DNA from: Nymphaea colorata
Lineage: Eukaryota > Streptophyta > Magnoliopsida > Nymphaeales > Nymphaeaceae
DNA length: 64,000 nt
Assembly: GCF_008831285.2 (NCBI RefSeq)
Contig: NC_045145.1
Span: 21,264,802 to 21,328,801, forward strand
Direction: 5' to 3'
Shown here in pieces: positions 3,904-20,156 of the stretch. Made by a program: the position numbers and the translations under genes. The notes below the pieces were generated by a model. It saw only the letters and a program-made list of their open reading frames with translations, did not search any database and was not told the DNA's origin. Positions within the stretch are counted from its first letter, which is position 1. Each line of letters starts with the position of its first letter.

Positions 3904-5020
3904 GAATTTTAAGAGATCCCACATGGCAATTAGCTAGTGTTGGATCCAGAAACTTTTGGTTGAAGGGCATCAATTGCCTGATGGCTTTTAATACTGATTT
4001 CCCACCGAGGAGAGTAAAGGTGCACTTGGTTAGCTGAGTCCTGGACTCATATTAGGGGCAAAGGCCCAGGTCCAGTGGAGGCAACGCAGGTGGCTGGACT
4101 TGGATCTGGATTCCACCTAGTTCAAGATCCAAAGGCCCGTGTTGACAACCTCTGCTCCTGCGATTAGCTTAAGTCAAATGGATCTACATGCCTTTGTCAA
4201 AATCATGTTTCTACGACTCTTTTCCAAATCTGTGGATCCAAGGGCGGACCCCATATTCATGGATCTTTAATTCTTTGTGGTTCTCAAGTCACTTCAGATC
4301 TTTGATCAAGACTATCAAATGCATGCCAACATGCTTTCAACACTCAAACCTAGCAGCAACGTTACGGTTTATGTGATACCATAGAAGCCAGGCTCTAAAA
4401 TTAGGTCAGAGTACAATTAAACCCTGAAACTCAATAAAAAAAAACCACCGAATGTAAATCTTTGTGTGACATGGTTTGCTTCATTGCAGATAGGTGCAGG
4501 TAGACTTGGTTCACATTCGGTACCAATACTACCTCAAAGCAAGACCTGCCTTCAATCAAGCCTTGTTTGCGTCCAAGCCCTAGTACCAAGATGGGGTCTA
4601 ATACTTAGACAGAGTAGTTTATTATACATTTAAGTGGCGTCACAACACTTAAGAGTAACATGCAAATTCTTTTGCTGCAATTGAAAAGGAATGCAATCAA
4701 AATGTTTGGTTTGGCCTGTCTTCATAACACTATCCTTCAGGAGAGTAGAAGCTGCTCGAAGAAGGGCTGCAGCCCTTTTCCTTTGCCTCACCCTCGAGTA
4801 GTTTGTGACGGGTTAGGGGTCAAGAGAGTTATGCTTACTATCGTTTGCAGTCTAAAAAAGTAATATCCTGAAAAACCAATGAAAAAGTAATGCGGCTCCC
4901 AATCCAACCAACTATGCGGACCCACTTTGAGTTTGAGGACCCATGTGGGATCTCTCCAGGTTCGTATAATGTGAGCTAAAAAGGCAGCAGTACACGTGAA
5001 AAAGTGAACAATCACGAGGG
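3904..5020. other. Intergenic stretch, no gene seen
   Basis: Only short open frames without coding character occur. Around 4170-4240 there is a weak match to the tail module of the array (compare 10990-11060). Confidence 0.5.
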
Positions 5021-5029
5021 CTCAAGTCC

Positions 5030-5560
5030 GTAACTCAACCAGGCCAGTTGCCAAGGAGATCCATGAATTACTTCGTAAAAGGTCTCCACCTTTGTAAACC
5101 TAAATACAGGGGAGCCCTACTTGACATGTAAATCCACATGCCTTGTCAATGTCATGTCTCTACTAGTCACATCATGTTTTCTCTTTTACAGTCAAAATTT
5201 GTCTGAGATAAGTGAATACATCATTTTCTACTGCACGCTTTTTACGGATTAGTAAAATCTTGAGGTCCCTCCTTAAGTATTGTTTCTTCCTTTGCTGCAT
5301 TTACCTGCATATGAATTGAACTGCATTTGTCTGGATTTTTACCTGGATCCAGCTGTTAGATCTGGCTCCTCTTGTTTAGATGCACACTTTTTTATTGAAA
5401 TCTTGGGACCAAATCAAACAACACATACTTTTTTATTGAAGTCTTGGGTCCAAATCAAACAACAAAAGCAAAGACATCTCTAAACAACATCAAAGTACTT
5501 CAGATCTTTCTATAGCCACTTCTTCGGCTATAAGCGTAGTTTTTGAAATTCATCAATTCT
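5030..5560 (+). repeat. Tail modules of a decayed array unit
   Basis: 5030-5260 resembles 10960-11160, 13160-13390 and the hairpin arms. Shared blocks include CCATGAATT, AAATCCACATGCCTTGTCAA, a CACATCATG block, and an AAGTGAATACATCA-type block. 5270-5560 resembles 11190-11430, with shared blocks GGATCCAGCTGTTAGATCTGG and CGGCTATAAGC. The same modules in the same order mark an old tandem duplication whose coding copy is gone. Confidence 0.6.
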
Positions 5561-5589
5561 TATCGATGAACCTGCTTGGACCTCAATGC

Positions 5590-6300
5590 TTTTGTCAATG
5601 GAGGGTTTGATGCATGTGTTTGTTAAGGCAAGCCCACTGGACAACAACTGGAAGGTGCACATCACATGGTCCTGCATGCCAATTGACCCACTTGTTCTGC
5701 TGTTCTATGCACCTGAAACAAAAATGATAACATGCTCATGATTGGATTTAGCTCCATGGGGACCATAAAGCTAGCCACAAGGGCTTAAGCGAATCAAATT
5801 GGCTTTTTGGGCAGAGGAATTAATGGTGTTCATCGGTTTCCGAATTTCAAGTTATATTGGTGAATGTGATTTTGGGATTTGTGGACTTGCCCACTCTTAG
5901 ATGAAAGGAATCAGGGTTCAAAATCCCATAAATCCCATCGTTTGGTCAGGATTCTTAGAATTACAGCCAGAGAGATCCACCTTGACATGAAGCCTTTGGT
6001 CTGCTGTTTGCCTGGATTGGCGCGAGAAGAAGTGAGGCCAACTTTTTGATGTCCTCAAATGAAAACGGAAAGCATGCGGAGAGGTGAGAGTCGGGAGGTT
6101 CCAGTCTTCATGCCGGTGGCAAGATTTCCATCTTCTGTAACAAAGGATTACGAATCCCTGGATAAGGTTTTGTCTGTAAATGGAAATCAAGAGGTATGCA
6201 GTCACAGATTCGTCTTCAATGCTTTCTTCCAAGTTCTCGGAAGTCGAATTCCATTCATCGATCTGTTTCTTTTTCCTATGTTCATGAACAATTAAGATTA
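5590..6300 (+). pseudogene. Array unit lacking its coding region
   Basis: The start (GGAGGGTTTGATGCATGTGT region) matches the start of the unit at about 9115. It carries a shortened 5' flank to about 5790 and then jumps directly to the 3'-UTR block (GAGGAATTAATGG at about 5815, GGGATTTGTGGACTTGCCC at about 5875, to about 6300). The promoter TATA box and the 84-codon reading frame are absent. This is what an internal deletion of one unit would leave. No product is expected. Confidence 0.6.
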
Positions 6301-6632
6301 GTTTTCTTCCTTCAGAGAGCGGCCACTGGTTTTCAGCAACGCCCTGTGACCCACTTGAGTGCAGTTCTTTGCACCAAAAACAAAATCACTAACATGCCCA
6401 GGGGGGAGAGAACGAAGGCTGATGTAATATTCAAATTGGCTAGAGGGCCACTTGCCATGGACCTTTCACCATTGATATTTGGTTGCACAACTCCACTTGC
6501 CTCACATGGCATCCACCTTTTGGTATTTATTCTTCTTGACTGTTCTTGTCAAGGAACGCACACCCACTTGACGAAATTGTCGAAATCAATGCATCGCAAT
6601 TGGGAAGTCGCCACAATGACCACGATCCTGCC

Positions 6633-6639
6633 TATATAA
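6633..6639 (+). promoter_or_regulatory. TATA box of small-protein copy A
   Basis: TATATAA lies 102 nt before the start codon in the block CCTATATAAACAGAAGAAGC, which recurs almost unchanged before copies B and C. About 65 nt upstream is a TTGACGAAA block with a TGACG half-site, the core bound by TGA-type bZIP factors; its function here is inference. Confidence 0.75.
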
Positions 6640-6734
6640 ACAGAAGAAGCTCCAAAATTCATTCCACAACCTTCTCCGGCCACCGCCTCCCTCCTGAACT
6701 AGCTGGTACCAGCACCTTGTGCCCTCTTAAAGCA

Positions 6735-6992
6735 ATGGAAAGCTTAGCCAGCTTTGAGGGACTCTGCCTGGCGGTTCCCCTTGTCTTCTTTCTCTTCTTC
6801 CTCTTTATGGCGGTGGAGTTCTCTTGGAACAACCGGAGCATTGGCCTGCCCCCAGATGCTTGCTTCCCTTCAAGCCAAAAATGGCTTGATAGGCACCAAG
6901 TTCATCATCCTCCTGTTGCCAGGGGACTCGGATCCCCAATCCCTCCTGACCACGTAATTGGCGGCCAGAAATTCATGTATTCTTTCCAGTGA
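6735..6992 (+). CDS. Small single-pass membrane protein, array copy A (85 aa)
   Basis: I do not recognise this family. The intronless frame encodes 85 residues: a short N-terminus (MESLASFEG), a strongly hydrophobic stretch at about residues 10-28 fit for one membrane span or signal anchor, then a polar tail with motifs EFSW, LPPDACFPS and HVIGG. The frame stays open for 63 codons upstream, but the TATA box at 6633 puts the transcript start at about 6660, so the ATG at 6735 is the start. It aligns along its whole length with copies B (9799) and C (14220) and partly with D (19908). A conserved 3' region runs to an AATAAA at 7462-7467, giving a likely transcript of about 0.8 kb. Only two cysteines are present, so it is not a defensin-like peptide. 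Function is unknown. Confidence 0.72.
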   Translation: MESLASFEGLCLAVPLVFFLFFLFMAVEFSWNNRSIGLPPDACFPSSQKWLDRHQVHHPPVARGLGSPIPPDHVIGGQKFMYSFQ

Positions 6993-6999
6993 AGACCCC

Positions 7000-7490
7000 A
7001 AGAACTGTTGACGTCCTCAAGCTGATGGACTTTTCACGAATCTGACAGTCAAGATAAATCACTCACAGGTTGCGAGACATGTTCTTTCGGGCAATGGAAT
7101 TAATGGCGTCATTTGATCTTTCCAGCAACAGGCTGGTTATCGTGATGTTGGGATTTGTGGACTTGCCCTCTTTTAAGATTGAAAAGAAATCAGGATTTAG
7201 AATCCCATCATTGCTCACAATTCCTAGCAGTCGAGAAAGATCACCCTGGGAGGCGACCTTCATCTGCTGTACGTTGTGATTTGCGAGGCCGACTTTCTTG
7301 CATCTTCAAATCCCCTGCTTCTGATGACGGTGAAAGTCATGCGGAGATGGGATAGTCGGGAGATCCACTCCTCATGTCCTGTGTTTGGCGATGGCGTGAT
7401 ATTTCATCTTCTGCAGAAAGATTACAATTCCACCTGTATAAGGTTTCATATTGTGAACGGAAATAAAGAATTATACAGTTTTGCTCACAC
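7000..7490 (+). other. Conserved 3'-UTR block of copy A with polyA signal
   Basis: The block from TTAATGGCGTCATT (about 7100) to the AATAAA at 7462 is shared with copies B (10140-10540) and C (14570-14940) and more weakly with D (20210-20330). Frames are interrupted or shifted differently in each copy, so I read it as untranslated. Confidence 0.6.
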
Positions 7491-7656
7491 ATCTTCCCTC
7501 CCTCAATTCGTCTTGAACAGTTTCTTGAAACTCGGAATTCATCAACTTGCTTGCTTTTTCTGCTGATGTAGAGTGCCTCAATGCATCGGCCTCTGTGAAT
7601 AGTTAAACCATGGCTGTTCCATATAACAAGCAAGAACCGATGCGGGCTCCCTTGAT

Positions 7657-8081
7657 TCAATGATAAACAAAACTCAGTTATATGAATCAAAACTGTAAAA
7701 CTCAGTCATATGAATCAAAACTAAACAATCAGATGTTGAATTCCATTGAAGATGCTGAGTTTTTCTTTTGATGATGAGGAAAACCACGCGGTTTCTTCCT
7801 TGACGTTTGATGATAATGGTGTCACACGTTACCATGTCCATTTCCAAACGTTGCTCAGCTTTGAGACATGACACAAAGTCTTCAATTTGACACGACTGCC
7901 AAGCGAGACCCATGAAAAGATCTCCAGCTTTCTAAATCTTTAAGCCAAGTAAATCCACATGCCTTGTCAACGCTATTAGTCACATCATGTCCTCACTTTT
8001 TAGAGACAAAATTCGCCTGACATAAGCGAGCGAATACATCAGTTTTTTTACATGACTTGGGTTAGTAAAATCTTTGCCTAC
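7657..8081 (+). repeat. Left arm of a ~430-bp near-perfect inverted repeat
   Basis: The arm is the reverse complement of 8169-8601 with about four substitutions and one 8-nt indel by my reading, roughly 99% identical. The spacer 8082-8168 is 87 nt. The two arms could pair into a long hairpin RNA. The arm content is the array's tail module, with more diverged direct copies at 10785-11160 and partial ones at 15300-15370, 13160-13390 and 5030-5260. Confidence 0.92.
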
Positions 8082-8168
8082 TGTGTGAACAGAAGAAGCT
8101 CCAGAATTCCACAAACCTTATCCAATACCCTCTTCCTCCATAGTTAATTGGTGCAGCAGCTTCGTTAA
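8082..8168 (+). other. Hairpin loop: decayed 5' leader of the small-protein family
   Basis: The loop contains ACAGAAGAAGCTCCAGAATT, then a CCACA...CCTCTTCCTCC...TAGTTAATTGGTGCAGCAGC series. This matches the stretch just downstream of the TATA box in copies B and C (compare 9704-9780). The TATA box and coding region are missing. Confidence 0.7.
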
Positions 8169-8601
8169 GTAGGCAAAGATTTTACTAACCCAAGTCATGT
8201 AAAAAAACTGATGTATTCGCTCGCTTATGACAGGCGAATTTTGTCTCTAAAAAGTGAAGACATGATGTGACTAATAGAGACATGGCGTTGACAAGGCATG
8301 TGGATTTACTTGGCTTAAAGATTTAGAAAGCTGGAGATCTTTTCATGGGTCTCGCTTGGCAATCGTGTCAAATTGAAGACTTTGTGTCATGTCTCAAAGC
8401 TGAGCAACGTTTGGAAATGGACATGGTAACGTGTGACACCATTATCATCAAACGTCAAGGAAGAAACCGCGTGGTTTTCCTCGTCATCAAAAGAAAAACT
8501 CAGCATCTTCAATGGAATTCAACATCTGATTGTTTAGTTTTGATTCATATGACTGAGTTTTACAGTTTTGATTCATATAACTGAGTTTTGTTTATCATTG
8601 A
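8169..8601 (-). repeat. Right arm of the inverted repeat
   Basis: Reverse complement of 7657-8081. It is 8 nt longer because the left arm lacks part of a CATGTCTC-containing block near 8278-8286. Each arm contains a 79-codon open frame reading away from the loop (8345-8584 on + and 7674-7913 on -) that differs at one residue. The frame is not kept in the other tail modules, so I do not call it a gene. Confidence 0.92.
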
Positions 8602-9110
8602 CGAAAGCAGTTTTTGACTCTAAAAGGGATGAGGGAATGGAGAGATGATCACTTGGGTGTTGGATCTCCTTCCATTTATCTACTCGAATTTAATCATACA
8701 AGAAATAGATGACTACTCTGAAACTTCATGCGGCTTTTATTTTTTGAAGTTGGTTTTTTGCATCTGACGTGATCTACCATTTCCGTGATGTACTGCTTAT
8801 ATTGTTTCGCTTGTGGCCTAATATTTAATTGGTTCATTCATATCTGTACTGGATTTCACTTGTGATTGTATATACATATATATATATATATATATATAAC
8901 CTCAGAATTGCCTTTCAGTAAGCATTTCGTTTGAGTTTTGCAGCATTACAGCAAAAATGGCCTCTTTCGACATATTACTAAACGGCTAGTCTCAGTCCTG
9001 ATATTCCTACATCTGTAGAAAACCCATTCAGCCAAACTTTTGTAGTAAATTGGGGATTCATACCCGTGAACCAGAATGGGGCTCAAGGTTTTTTTTTTTT
9101 TTTATAATAT
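8602..9110. other. Intergenic stretch with (TA)n tract
   Basis: No gene is seen. A TA microsatellite lies at about 8869-8898. Confidence 0.6.
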
Positions 9111-9696
9111 AATGGAAGGTTTCATGCATGTATTTGTTAATCAAGCCTAGTTGACCACTAGAAGGTGCAGAACATGGGCCAAGTCAGAAATTTGTGACTA
9201 AAAAGCACTAGTAATAAATTTTGAATTTTTAAAAGACATAAACATGTAAATGAAAAAAGTTACCCTAAAATGTGAACATAAAAATAAACATTTTTTGTGG
9301 CTTTCTGTGGGCAAGTGCCCACACCTGCCTCCACCCCTGGTGCAAAAGCCAGACCATGCCCTGTGACCCACTTGTGGTGCAGCTCTTTGCACCAAAAACT
9401 AAAGCACCAACATGCCCAAGGGGGAGAGAACGAAGGCTGATGTAATATTCAAATTGGCTCAAGGGCCACTTGCCATGGACTGACTCTTCAAGTGCCGCCA
9501 TCTCCATTGTCCTTTCACCATTGATATTCATGACAATAAGCCTCTGTTGCACAACTCCACTTGCCTCACATGGCATCCGCCTTTTGGTATTTATTCTTCT
9601 TGACTGTTCGCGTCAAGGAAGGCACACCCACTTGACGAAATTGTCGAAATCAATGCATCGCAGAAGTCTTGCAGCCAGAATGATCATGATCCTGCC

Positions 9697-9703
9697 TATA
9701 TAA
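9697..9703 (+). promoter_or_regulatory. TATA box of small-protein copy B
   Basis: TATATAA lies 102 nt before the ATG at 9799, the same spacing as copy A. The flanks are almost identical to copy A, including the TTGACGAAA block near 9628. The unit's 5' flank is recognisable from about 9115. Confidence 0.75.
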
Positions 9704-9798
9704 ACAGAAGAAGCTCCAGAATTAATTCCACAGCCTTCTCCGGCCATCTCCTCCCTCCAGAACTAGTTGCAACCAGCATCTTCCGCTGTCTTAAAGAA

Positions 9799-10053
9799 AT
9801 GGAAAGCTTAGCTAGCTTTGAGGGACTCTGCGTAGCGGTTCCCCTCGTCTTCGTTCTCCTCTTCCTCTTCATGGCGGTGGAGTTCTCTTGGAACAACCAG
9901 AGCATTGGCTTGCCCCCAGATGCTTGCTTCCCTTCAAACCAAAAATGGCTCGTCAGGCACCAAGATCATCTTCCTGTTACCAGGGTACTTGGATCCCCAA
10001 TCCCTCTTGAACACATAATTGGTGGCAAGAAATTGATGTTTTCCTTCCAGTGA
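9799..10053 (+). CDS. Small single-pass membrane protein, array copy B (84 aa)
   Basis: Intronless frame of 84 residues of the same unrecognised family as copy A. It differs from copy C at about eight positions, mostly conservative (V/L, F/Y, E/D, K/Q). The hydrophobic span is at about residues 10-28, followed by EFSWNNQSIGLPPDACFPSN and a tail ending MFSFQ. There is no alternative upstream ATG in frame, which supports the start also used for A and C. The conserved 3' block follows, with AATAAA at 10531-10536. The tail is net basic and has His residues but no recognised catalytic or zinc-binding pattern. It is probably a membrane or secretory-route protein; this is inferred from hydrophobicity only. 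Confidence 0.75.
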   Translation: MESLASFEGLCVAVPLVFVLLFLFMAVEFSWNNQSIGLPPDACFPSNQKWLVRHQDHLPVTRVLGSPIPLEHIIGGKKLMFSFQ

Positions 10054-10139
10054 AGCGCCCCACCTCAAGTTGATGGACTTCTGACATTCAGGATCGACGC
10101 CTGTTATTGTAAATCACATGTCAGTTGGAAAAATTTCTC

Positions 10140-11430
10140 TTTGGCAGAGGAATTAATGGCGTCATTCAATCTTTCTTGCAATACTCTGGTTACCTTGGTG
10201 AACGCGATGATGGGATTTGTGGACTTGCCCTCTTTTAAGATGATAAGGAATCAGGATTTAGAGTCCCATCATTTGCTCACAATTCCTAAAAGTCGAGAAA
10301 GATCGTTTTCTGAGGACCTTCATCTGCTGTATGTCAGGATTCGCGAGGCCAACTTTCTGCATCTTCAAATCCCCTGCTTCTGATGAAAATGGAAGTCAAG
10401 CGGACATGTGATAGAGTCGGGAGTCCACTCCTGATGTCCCGTGTTTGCCGATGGCGAGATATTTCATCTTCTGCAGAAAGATTACAAACCAGCAAATCCC
10501 CCTGTACGAATGTTTTATATTGTGAAGGGAAATAAAGAATTATACAGTTTTGCTCGCACATCTTCACTCCCTCAATTCCTCTTCAGCTCTTTCTCGAGAC
10601 TCGGAATTCATGAACTTGTTTTCTTTTTTCTGCAGACAAACATAAATTACTGTCGAGTGCCTCGATGCTTCTGCTTCTGTAAAGAGTTAAACATGGCTGT
10701 CCACATAACGAGCAAGAGCCGATGTGGGCTCCCTTGAGTTCAAAGAAGAATAAAATTCTGTTACATGAATCAAAACTAAAGCAAACAAATGTTGAATTCC
10801 ATTGAAGATGCTGAGTTTTTCTTTTGATGATGAGGAGAAGAACCACGCGGTTTCTTTCTTGACGTTCGATGATAATGTAGCTTCACTTTACCATGTCCTT
10901 TTCCAAATATTCCGCAGCTTTGAGAGATGAACCCAAAGTCTTCAACTTGACACGATCACCAAGCGAGAGCCATGAATTGCTTCCGAAAAGATCTCCAGCT
11001 TTCTAAGTTCAAATCCACATGGCTTGTCAAGGCCATGTCTCTGGTAGTCACATCATCATATTCATGCTTTCTCTTTTAAAGACAAAATTCGTCTGACATA
11101 AGCGAATACATCATTTTTGACTTCACGTTTTTGCATGATTTGGATTAGTGAAATCTTTGGGTTCCTTCTTCCTCAATTATTATTCTTTCTTTCCTGCGTT
11201 TACCGGCATTCGGGATCAACCGCACCTATCTGGATTGGACCTGGATCCGGCTGCTAGATCTGGATCATTTTGTTTAGATGCTTACTTTTGAATGAAATTT
11301 TGGGTACAAATTAAAAAAAATAAACAGAAACCAAAGACAATCTCTAAGCAACATCAAAGAACCTAAGATCTTTTGTACAGCCACCACATCGGCTATAAGC
11401 AAAGGTTTCGACATCATATATTTTAGAAAA
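10140..11430 (+). repeat. 3'-UTR and tail modules of unit B
   Basis: The order is: 3'-UTR block 10140-10600, tail module 10680-11160 (a direct, diverged copy of the hairpin arm), and end module 11190-11430 (match to 5270-5560). This is the most complete unit and serves as the reference for the relics upstream. Confidence 0.65.
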
Positions 11431-13949: not shown

Positions 13950-14111
13950 CTTCTTTCTCGTGGCTTTTGACACGATGCTTAAGAGAACAATGTGAATCTT
14001 GAAAAAAAACGAGACGACCGACTTCACGAAATTGTGAAGCTCACTAGATGGCAAGCAATTGGGAAGTCCATATCCACGATTCTTGAGGTCGGAATGATCG
14101 TCATCCTTGCC

Positions 14112-14118
14112 TATATAA
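14112..14118 (+). promoter_or_regulatory. TATA box of small-protein copy C
   Basis: TATATAA lies 108 nt before the ATG at 14220 in the same CTATATAAACAG context as A and B. The TGACG half-site seen upstream in A and B is changed to TTCACGAAA here. Confidence 0.75.
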
Positions 14119-14219
14119 ACAGCAGAAGCTCCGGAATTAATCCCACAGCCTTCTCCGGCCATCGCCTCCACCCACTACTAATTGCAACCACCAGCACCTT
14201 CTGCCTTCTTGTCTTACAA

Positions 14220-14474
14220 ATGGAAAGCTTAGCTAGCTTTGAGGGACTCTGCCTAGCGGTTCCCCTCGTCTTCTTTCTCCTCTTCCTCTTCATGGCCATG
14301 GAGTTCTCTTGGAACAACCAGAGCATTGGCTTGCCCCCAGATGCTTGCTTCCCCTCAAACCAAAAATGGCTCGGTCGGCACCAAGATCATCTTCCTGTTA
14401 CCAGGGTACTCGGTTCCCCAATCCCTCTTGACCACATAATTGGTGGTCAGAAATTGATGTATTCTTTCCAGTGA
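14220..14474 (+). CDS. Small single-pass membrane protein, array copy C (84 aa)
   Basis: Intronless frame of 84 residues, the closest relative of copy B. It has the hydrophobic span at about 10-28, then EFSWNNQSIG, LPPDACFPSN, a basic/His segment, IIGGQK and the C-terminus MYSFQ. The frame continues open for 76 codons upstream through the promoter, but the TATA position and comparison with B place the start at 14220. The 3' block of this copy happens to be open for 144 codons (14506-14940). That frame is broken in A and shorter in B, so I treat it as 3'-UTR. No canonical AATAAA is kept at the expected site (GAAATTAAAG near 14933), so 3' processing may differ. Function is unknown. Confidence 0.74.
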   Translation: MESLASFEGLCLAVPLVFFLLFLFMAMEFSWNNQSIGLPPDACFPSNQKWLGRHQDHLPVTRVLGSPIPLDHIIGGQKLMYSFQ

Positions 14475-14569: not shown

Positions 14570-15610
14570 CAAAGCAATCAATGGCGTCATTCGATCTTTC
14601 CTGCAACAGTCTGGTTATCTTGGTGAATGTGATGTTGGCGTTTGTGGAATTGCCTTCTCGTAAGATGAAATGGAATCAGGATTTAGAATCCCACCATTTG
14701 CTCACAATTTCTAGAAGTCGAGAAAGATCACCCTGTGCTGAAGACCTTCATCTTCTGTATGTCGGGATTCGCGAGGCTAACTTTTCTGTACCTTCAAATC
14801 CCCTTCTTCTGATGAAAATGGAAGTCCTGCGGAGATGTGAAGGAGTCGGCGGGAATCCCCTCCATAGCGAGATCTTTCATCTTCTGGAGAAAGATTATAA
14901 ACCCCCCTGTATAAGTCTTTGTATTGTGAAAGGAAATTAAAGAATTATACAGTTTTGTTCACACATCTTTCCTCCTTCAATTCATCTTCAAGTGTTTCTT
15001 GAAACTCGGAATTCATTAATTTCTTTGTTTTTTCTGCTGATGAACATAGATTGCTTTACATCACTCAACAGTAACTATAAATAAGATGAAACTCTTCTTT
15101 TGATTTATTACACCAATAAACGGCACATGGGTCGCCCGTATAAATGGTCGGAAAAGCCTGTCCCAGTGCCTCGTTCCAAGGCCTACAGATGTTTCGGCCT
15201 CTGTGAAGAGTTGAACCATGGTTGTCCATGTAACGAGCAAGAACCGACGCGGGCTCCCTTGATTCAGAGATAAACTCTGATATATGAATCAAAACTGAGC
15301 AATCAGATGTTGAATTCCATCGAAGATGCTGTGTTTTTCTTTTGACGATGAGGAAAACCACGTGGTTTCCTTCACGTTTGTGATTAAACACACTACCGGA
15401 ATATTGACTCTCGACGTAACACGCTTGGGTGCCCTTCACTTTTTTGTCGATGAAACTTCAGATACTCAAACAAACAACGCCATGAGAAAGCTCGCGCAGC
15501 ATTGGGACATGAGCCAAAGTTTCAACTTACACGATTCACAGAACCACACCTCCCTCTTACTGCCTGATCACGCAGGTAGATGCATCTTACAGGTCAATCG
15601 GCAATAGTAA
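14570..15610 (+). repeat. 3'-UTR and tail modules of unit C
   Basis: 3'-UTR block 14570-14990, then a tail module around 15180-15370 (GAACCGACGCGGGCTCCCTT, TTGAATTCCATCGAAGATGC) matching 7640-7790 and 10700-10860. After about 15380 the similarity fades and the unit is truncated. Confidence 0.6.
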
Positions 15611-19907: not shown

Positions 19908-20156
19908 ATGGAGGTCTTAGCTATCTTTGAGGGACATTGTGGTTTGTACCTTGCAGTTCCTTTTGTGTTGTTTCTCTACTTCCTGTTGATAGCCGTGGAG
20001 TTCTCTTGGAGCAACCAGGTCATTTACCTGCCCCCAGACGTATGCCTTCCTTCAAGCCACAGATGGTTTAGTGGGCATGAAGATGATCTCCTTCTTGGCG
20101 GATTGGGAGGTACAGATTCTTTTGGGTACATCGTTGGTAGCCGGAAAATTGGATGA
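19908..20156 (+). CDS. Small single-pass membrane protein, divergent copy D (82 aa)
   Basis: Intronless 82-residue frame, clearly homologous to copies A-C yet strongly diverged. It keeps LAVPFV before a hydrophobic stretch, then AVEFSW, LPPDVCLPSS, a W and an acidic/His segment, and ends in IVGSRKIG. It has a two-residue insertion near the N-terminus and lacks the SFQ end. The TATA-to-ATG spacing matches the others. The flanks are nearly unalignable apart from a short 3' block near 20230-20320, so the survival of an open, co-linear frame suggests selection on the protein. I chose the ATG at 19908 because the leader before it contains the CT repeat and an AACAATGG start context. Role unknown. 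Confidence 0.7.
   Translation: MEVLAIFEGHCGLYLAVPFVLFLYFLLIAVEFSWSNQVIYLPPDVCLPSSHRWFSGHEDDLLLGGLGGTDSFGYIVGSRKIG

Follow-up and report, generated by a model that had tools for sequence, protein, structure and literature searches.

The gene array and its inverted repeat

The window analyzed here, a stretch of 64,000 nucleotides of the Nymphaea colorata genome (NC_045145.1, positions 21,264,802 to 21,328,801), harbors a tandem array of small-protein genes. The array open reading frames at 6735-6992 (copy A), 9799-10053 (copy B), 14220-14474 (copy C) and 19908-20156 (copy D) encode proteins of 82-85 aa, which contain a hydrophobic segment as well as a conserved EFSW-N core. The proteins of copies A, B and C, 84-85 aa in length and each with a strongly hydrophobic stretch, are 81-92% alike, with dN/dS values of 0.22-0.41, and the protein of copy D is more distant (51-52% alike, dN/dS 0.40-0.50). 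In copy A (+ strand, 85 aa), the strongest hydrophobic 19-residue stretch starts from residue 9. A Pfam search of the four array proteins returned no family over the cut-off; a weak match to Psg1 was seen for three of them (E 0.02-0.19) and none for D. A protein search of the genome yielded 11 matches to the array proteins at E up to 10, four of them in the window. Distant relatives form a three-gene row on C3 near 17.61-17.62 Mb, with weaker matches elsewhere. Neither tRNA nor tmRNA genes were found in the window by ARAGORN, and Rfam returned nothing at gathering thresholds for the whole window. On these data, the array looks like a set of working small-protein genes.

Copy A carries TATATAA at 6633-6639 (+ strand), which we take to be its TATA box and which recurs at 9697 in copy B; this is the position at which the preliminary description had placed a promoter. 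AATAAA at 7462-7467 (+ strand) is presumably a poly(A)-like signal of copy A, in agreement with the ~190 nt that had been given as its distance to the repeat. When the + strand was scanned for AATAAA and ATTAAA from 6990 to 9212, the motif at 7462 was the only one, the next following at 9213, past the repeat. Thus, a transcript that misses the signal at 7462 could traverse the whole hairpin.

A repeat search of the window located a near-perfect inverted repeat behind copy A, with a left arm at 7657-8082 (+ strand) and a right arm at 8168-8601 (− strand) of ~430 bp each. The outer blocks (7657-7976 and 8282-8601) pair over 320 nt at 99% and the inner blocks (7973-8082 and 8168-8277) over 110 nt at 98%, leaving 85 nt between the inner arms. 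In a global alignment the arms differ by four substitutions (7775/8483, 7896/8362, 7992/8258 and 8020/8230) and one 8-nt indel, missing after 7972 and present as 8278-8285. The preliminary description had reported a near-perfect ~430-bp inverted repeat in the gene array with about four differences and one 8-nt indel, and both arm coordinates and alignment agree with it; the loop it described is present as well, at ~85 nt instead of 87 nt. The left arm includes a 28-nt tandem duplication (7669-7722, + strand), which is mirrored at 8536-8589. Taken as RNA, the + strand of 7657-8601 folds with −770.4 kcal/mol, compared to a mean of −217 (sd 7.7) for 20 shuffles of the same stretch. This z value of −72 places the fold far outside chance and supports the very long hairpin that had been proposed to form on transcription.

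The loop (8083-8167, + strand) is what remains of a lost gene copy, namely its TATA box and 5' leader, with homology spanning 8081-8163. It aligns with copy A (6632-6718) in 62 of 88 columns (score 63, shuffled maximum 28), with copy B (9696-9783) in 64 of 91 columns (score 65, shuffled maximum 27) and with copy C (14111-14201) in 60 of 94 columns (score 46, shuffled maximum 30); no match was obtained with copy D (score 15 versus 29 for shuffled sequence). The TATA box is decayed, as TATATAAA in copies A and B corresponds to TGTGTGAA in the loop. Among the intact leaders, A and B agree in 86 of 100 columns and A and C in 78 of 99. Since the loop is less alike to these leaders than they are among themselves, drift in the relic has lasted longer or gone faster than in the intact copies.

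Parentage and relative age of the arms

Using arm and loop as a query against the whole 407.8-Mb genome, we obtained five matches, all inside the gene array in the window: the two arms, the flanks of copies B and C, and a remnant unit termed unit 0. This DNA search leaves out very common words and is limited to scoring the best candidates, so that short matches elsewhere could be missed. Tandem unit A (6341-8076, + strand), made up of a distal promoter, the gene and a 3' flank, is colinear with its sister unit B (9358-11159, + strand) and aligns with it in one piece at 78% over 1875 columns. As the last 420 bases of unit A are the left arm, this alignment identifies the left arm as the normal 3' flank of a ~1.8-kb tandem unit, still in place. 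The homology of flanks B and C is continuous over the outer left-arm edge at 7657. The right arm has no colinear counterpart in the sister units, and unit B is without an inverted copy of its own flank. Judged by these alignments, the right arm was added after the split of the units, by copying the left arm backwards. Overall identity of flank B to the arms is only ~75-76%, and the 3' flank of copy C (15188-15536, + strand) is a partial homologue of them.

Remnant unit 0 (5125-5549, + strand) is homologous to the inner arm (over 5125-5261) and to 11011-11414. Over 5125-6202 it has kept the spacer (5130-5549) together with pieces of the 3' part of the gene (5807-6202), and a protein search found no array-protein relative in it. 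A further stretch at 2796-2930 is ~70% like 9364-9525 in the distal promoter region of unit B, and by this likeness parts of the array may extend further upstream. In units 0 and B the arm homologue is followed by another segment than in unit A (5130-5549 aligning with 11011-11414), which makes the join to the leader relic an older event that concerns the A-B interval only.

Downstream of the right arm, a genome search with 8590-9420, in which the best 40 of 666 candidates were scored, returned no other match for ~8602-9171 except a TA repeat near 8865-8899. Relatives of 8602-9110 in units 0 and B were not significant (scores of 34 versus a shuffled maximum of 41, and 22 versus 39). By sensitive alignment, 9056-9180 matches unit 0 at 5556-5672 (87/131, score 90 versus 37 shuffled). 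Just upstream of unit B, at 9172-9346, lies a dispersed repeat of ~160 bases, for which at least 39 other full-length-like places at 74-81% and at least two partial ones were seen among the best 40 of 666 candidates.

The differences between arms and flanks order these events. The 28-nt duplication is common to both arms and absent from flanks B and C; it thus predates the inverted duplication and places the copying of the right arm from the A flank later than the split of the units. The 8-nt segment is present in the right arm and in flank B, and unit 0 has 7 of 8 letters alike, so that it was deleted later from the left arm. The left arm has furthermore changed at 7896 and 7992 (T to C each), and the right arm at 7775 (T to C) and 8020 (A to T), given in the reading direction of the left arm. 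References for polarity were B and C at 7775, B at 7896, and B together with unit 0 at 7992, 8020 and the indel. Polarity is not unanimous, as the unit 0 row shows C at 7775 and 7896, as opposed to T in copies B and C. In the MAFFT alignment, the unit 0 row near 7775 and 7896 and the copy C row past about column 165 look misplaced, and the unit 0 letters at 7775 and 7896 were set aside as part of an isolated or badly aligned stretch. Three changes in the left arm and two in the right arm fit independent drift after one duplication.

Divergence between the arms amounts to ~0.9% (4 substitutions over ~426 sites), and synonymous divergence of the genes to 0.21 (A-B), 0.26 (A-C) and 0.16 (B-C). 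By this crude ratio, which provides a relative age only, the inverted duplication would be roughly 15-30 times younger than the gene copies. Gene conversion between older arms could also have produced their near-identity. Observed/expected CpG is 0.76 and 0.81 in the arms, compared to 0.56 in the window, 0.73 in flank B and 1.08 in flank C. The CpG content of the arms gives no sign of methylation decay, although the event appears too young for this to carry much weight.

Origin of the repeat and alternative readings

We regard the repeat as probably the product of a single recent event, in which intergenic DNA inside the small-protein gene array was duplicated in inverted orientation, and as most likely without a selected function. 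An older rearrangement would have put a decayed TATA box and 5' leader directly behind the flank of unit A, and ~430 bp of this flank would later have been copied backwards beyond the relic, probably by template switching in replication or repair. If copy A is read through past its poly(A) signal, the RNA could fold into a ~425-bp duplex, a possible substrate for Dicer-like enzymes. Small RNAs cut from it would act mostly on the repeat itself, by methylation in cis, and would reach at most the non-coding flanks of the sister units B, C and 0. The locus is an ordinary local rearrangement of a known kind, for which structure, parentage, order of events and, at the sensitivity of the search, confinement to the array are established. 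It shows a long inverted repeat at an early stage, when parent, event order and arm-specific mutations can still be read. If small RNAs are made, the locus would allow one to ask if silencing sets in immediately at a newly formed intergenic hairpin and if marks spread from it to sister copies.

A source of hairpin siRNAs is possible on structure, the repeat being long and near-perfect with a short spacer. That it is an active siRNA locus, at which read-through of copy A yields dsRNA and siRNAs methylate the repeat and flanks B and C, thereby tuning the array, we consider unlikely. A TATA promoter lies on the same strand, and the + strand is free of AATAAA and ATTAAA between 7462 and 9213. The host has Dicer-like enzymes at the level of domain matches: among 17 candidates scored in the genome, 13 matched the Dicer dimerisation domain (PF03368), all over the cut-off and one with an internal stop. 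These matches were found piecewise and at domain level, with four equal-scoring places on C4 and C683, and do not represent a gene count. The identical scores, three on C4 and one on C683, suggest that a Dicer-like gene was copied recently or that the assembly contains duplicates.

Within the window, the potential targets of such siRNAs lie in the array. Exact matches elsewhere in the window exist for 33 of 406 left-arm 21-mers, and 138 arm positions have a 21-mer match with up to two mismatches, all in array flanks. In the window outside the repeat, 184 matches with up to two mismatches were counted, all on the + strand, in flank B (10750-11249), flank C (15250-15499) and unit 0 (5000-5249), with none in an open reading frame of copies A-D. 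Such targets are spacer past the predicted gene ends, and the low overall identity to flank B speaks against the reading as well. With target flanks beyond the predicted gene ends, cleavage of array mRNA is not expected, and any effect would be one on chromatin, chiefly of the repeat.

At PAI1-PAI4 in Arabidopsis, a precedent, transcription reads through into the palindrome and gives fold-back dsRNA (PMC3203196), and the VIM4-VIM2 inverted repeat is described as giving siRNAs from its stem and few from its loop (PMC13213937). In hairpin transgenes, methylation is found on the inverted repeat as well as on the promoter next to it (PMC9263138). Against the reading, S-locus hairpins directed at non-coding parts of a gene, promoter or intron sequence, repress the gene while DNA methylation is unchanged, and for proto-miRNA hairpins generally the same source sees little evidence of substantial effects (PMC13128112).

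Very improbable, in our assessment, is a newborn self-regulator of the array, in which leaky termination of copy A would yield the spacer hairpin and small RNAs would mark the sister spacers. If it held, expression of the array would be sensed by read-through and damped through flanking chromatin.

The model in which a MIRNA gene is born when its target gene is duplicated in inverted orientation reportedly goes back to Allen et al. 2004. PMC3237417 describes a model that begins with such a duplication of the target gene, and also assigns many miRNA genes to transposons and pseudogenes. The preliminary description had viewed the repeat as raw material of this kind; on that model it would be a proto-MIRNA locus heading to a gene-targeting microRNA. 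A long, near-perfect and young hairpin that arose by inverted duplication is indeed present, and proto-miRNA loci are presented in PMC13128112 as inverted repeats that acquired transcription; the additional sources named in PMC3237417 would widen the range of possible parents. The duplicated DNA, however, is spacer past the predicted poly(A) signal, the stem does not derive from transcribed gene sequence by the predicted gene ends, and the leader relic is located in the loop. The genome DNA search, insensitive to short matches, found no arm match outside the array, and Rfam at gathering thresholds contributed nothing in favor of a microRNA. Since the arms lie past the predicted poly(A) signal and have their matches in non-coding array flanks only, the case is weak: a microRNA origin of the repeat is unlikely, and an ongoing path toward a gene-targeting microRNA exceedingly so. 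A non-genic hairpin serving as a MIRNA source would lack a ready-made gene target.

An equally slim chance is given to an artefact of assembly or library, that is, a fold-back read built into the contig. Fold-back artefacts in assemblies and libraries give inverted repeats. In the assembled sequence, however, the arms are not identical apart from random error: their differences are arm-specific and of both polarities, including the 8-nt deletion in the left arm, at which the right arm has retained bases shared with B and unit 0. Both arms have thus diverged independently, which argues against an assembly fold-back, an unlikely source of the repeat on this evidence. Beyond the inverted stretch, from 8602 on, the DNA has no other genome matches and continues to unit B; past 8601 there is no mirror of the left flank, unlike in a fold-back read.

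Insertion of a foldback transposon or MITE between A and B, which the long terminal inverted repeats and short spacer resemble, is the least probable origin and was rejected. It is contradicted by the genome search, in which five of five matches lie in the array and no dispersed copy was found at the sensitivity of that search, and by the homology to other units that runs continuously over the left edge at 7657, instead of a clean insertion relative to empty sister sites; by eye, no target-site duplication was seen at the outer junctions.

Related systems and inverted repeats elsewhere in the genome

Among described systems, PAI1-PAI4 of Arabidopsis resembles the Nymphaea locus in being a local inverted duplication within a duplicated gene family, with transcription entering the palindrome from outside (PMC3203196), as read-through of copy A would. 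By the same account the PAI arms are genes, whereas the Nymphaea arms are intergenic spacer, and the PAI sequence is shared by unlinked PAI genes, whereas matches to the Nymphaea repeat were found in the local array only. The VIM4-VIM2 locus of Arabidopsis Cvi is likewise a rearrangement of a gene cluster that gave a stem and a loop. Its arms are identical and include the first exon and intron, in contrast to the leader homology confined to the loop in Nymphaea, and siRNAs were sequenced there (PMC13213937). The S-locus small RNA precursors and proto-miRNAs are inverted repeats too, whose small RNAs can match gene-near non-coding parts; they are expressed and were tested in transgenic plants (PMC13128112). 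The birth of MIRNA genes from target genes shares with our locus the sourcing of a hairpin by inverted duplication (PMC3237417), and differs from it in that the duplicated Nymphaea DNA is not transcribed target-gene sequence by the predicted gene ends.

As a baseline, we compared 20 stretches of 10 kb each (200 kb) at fixed, non-random coordinates with themselves, counting inverted self-matches of at least 80 nt and at least 80% with no maximum spacing imposed; the sample is small and gives no genome-wide rate. Any inverted self-match was present in 4 of the 20 stretches, and arms of at least 400 nt in none (0/20). Self-comparison of two stretches covering the sister array on C3 (18 kb), with the low-complexity filter on, yielded no inverted self-match of at least 40 nt. 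Within the baseline, stretch L013 contains one self-overlapping palindrome of 150 columns at 83%, and L008 and L020 contain self-overlapping palindromes of 80-134 nt. Stretch L017 (C5:14000001-14010000) holds a complex array of repeats; its inverted copies reach 315 columns at 95-97%, and neighboring copies are spaced ~0.5-0.7 kb apart.
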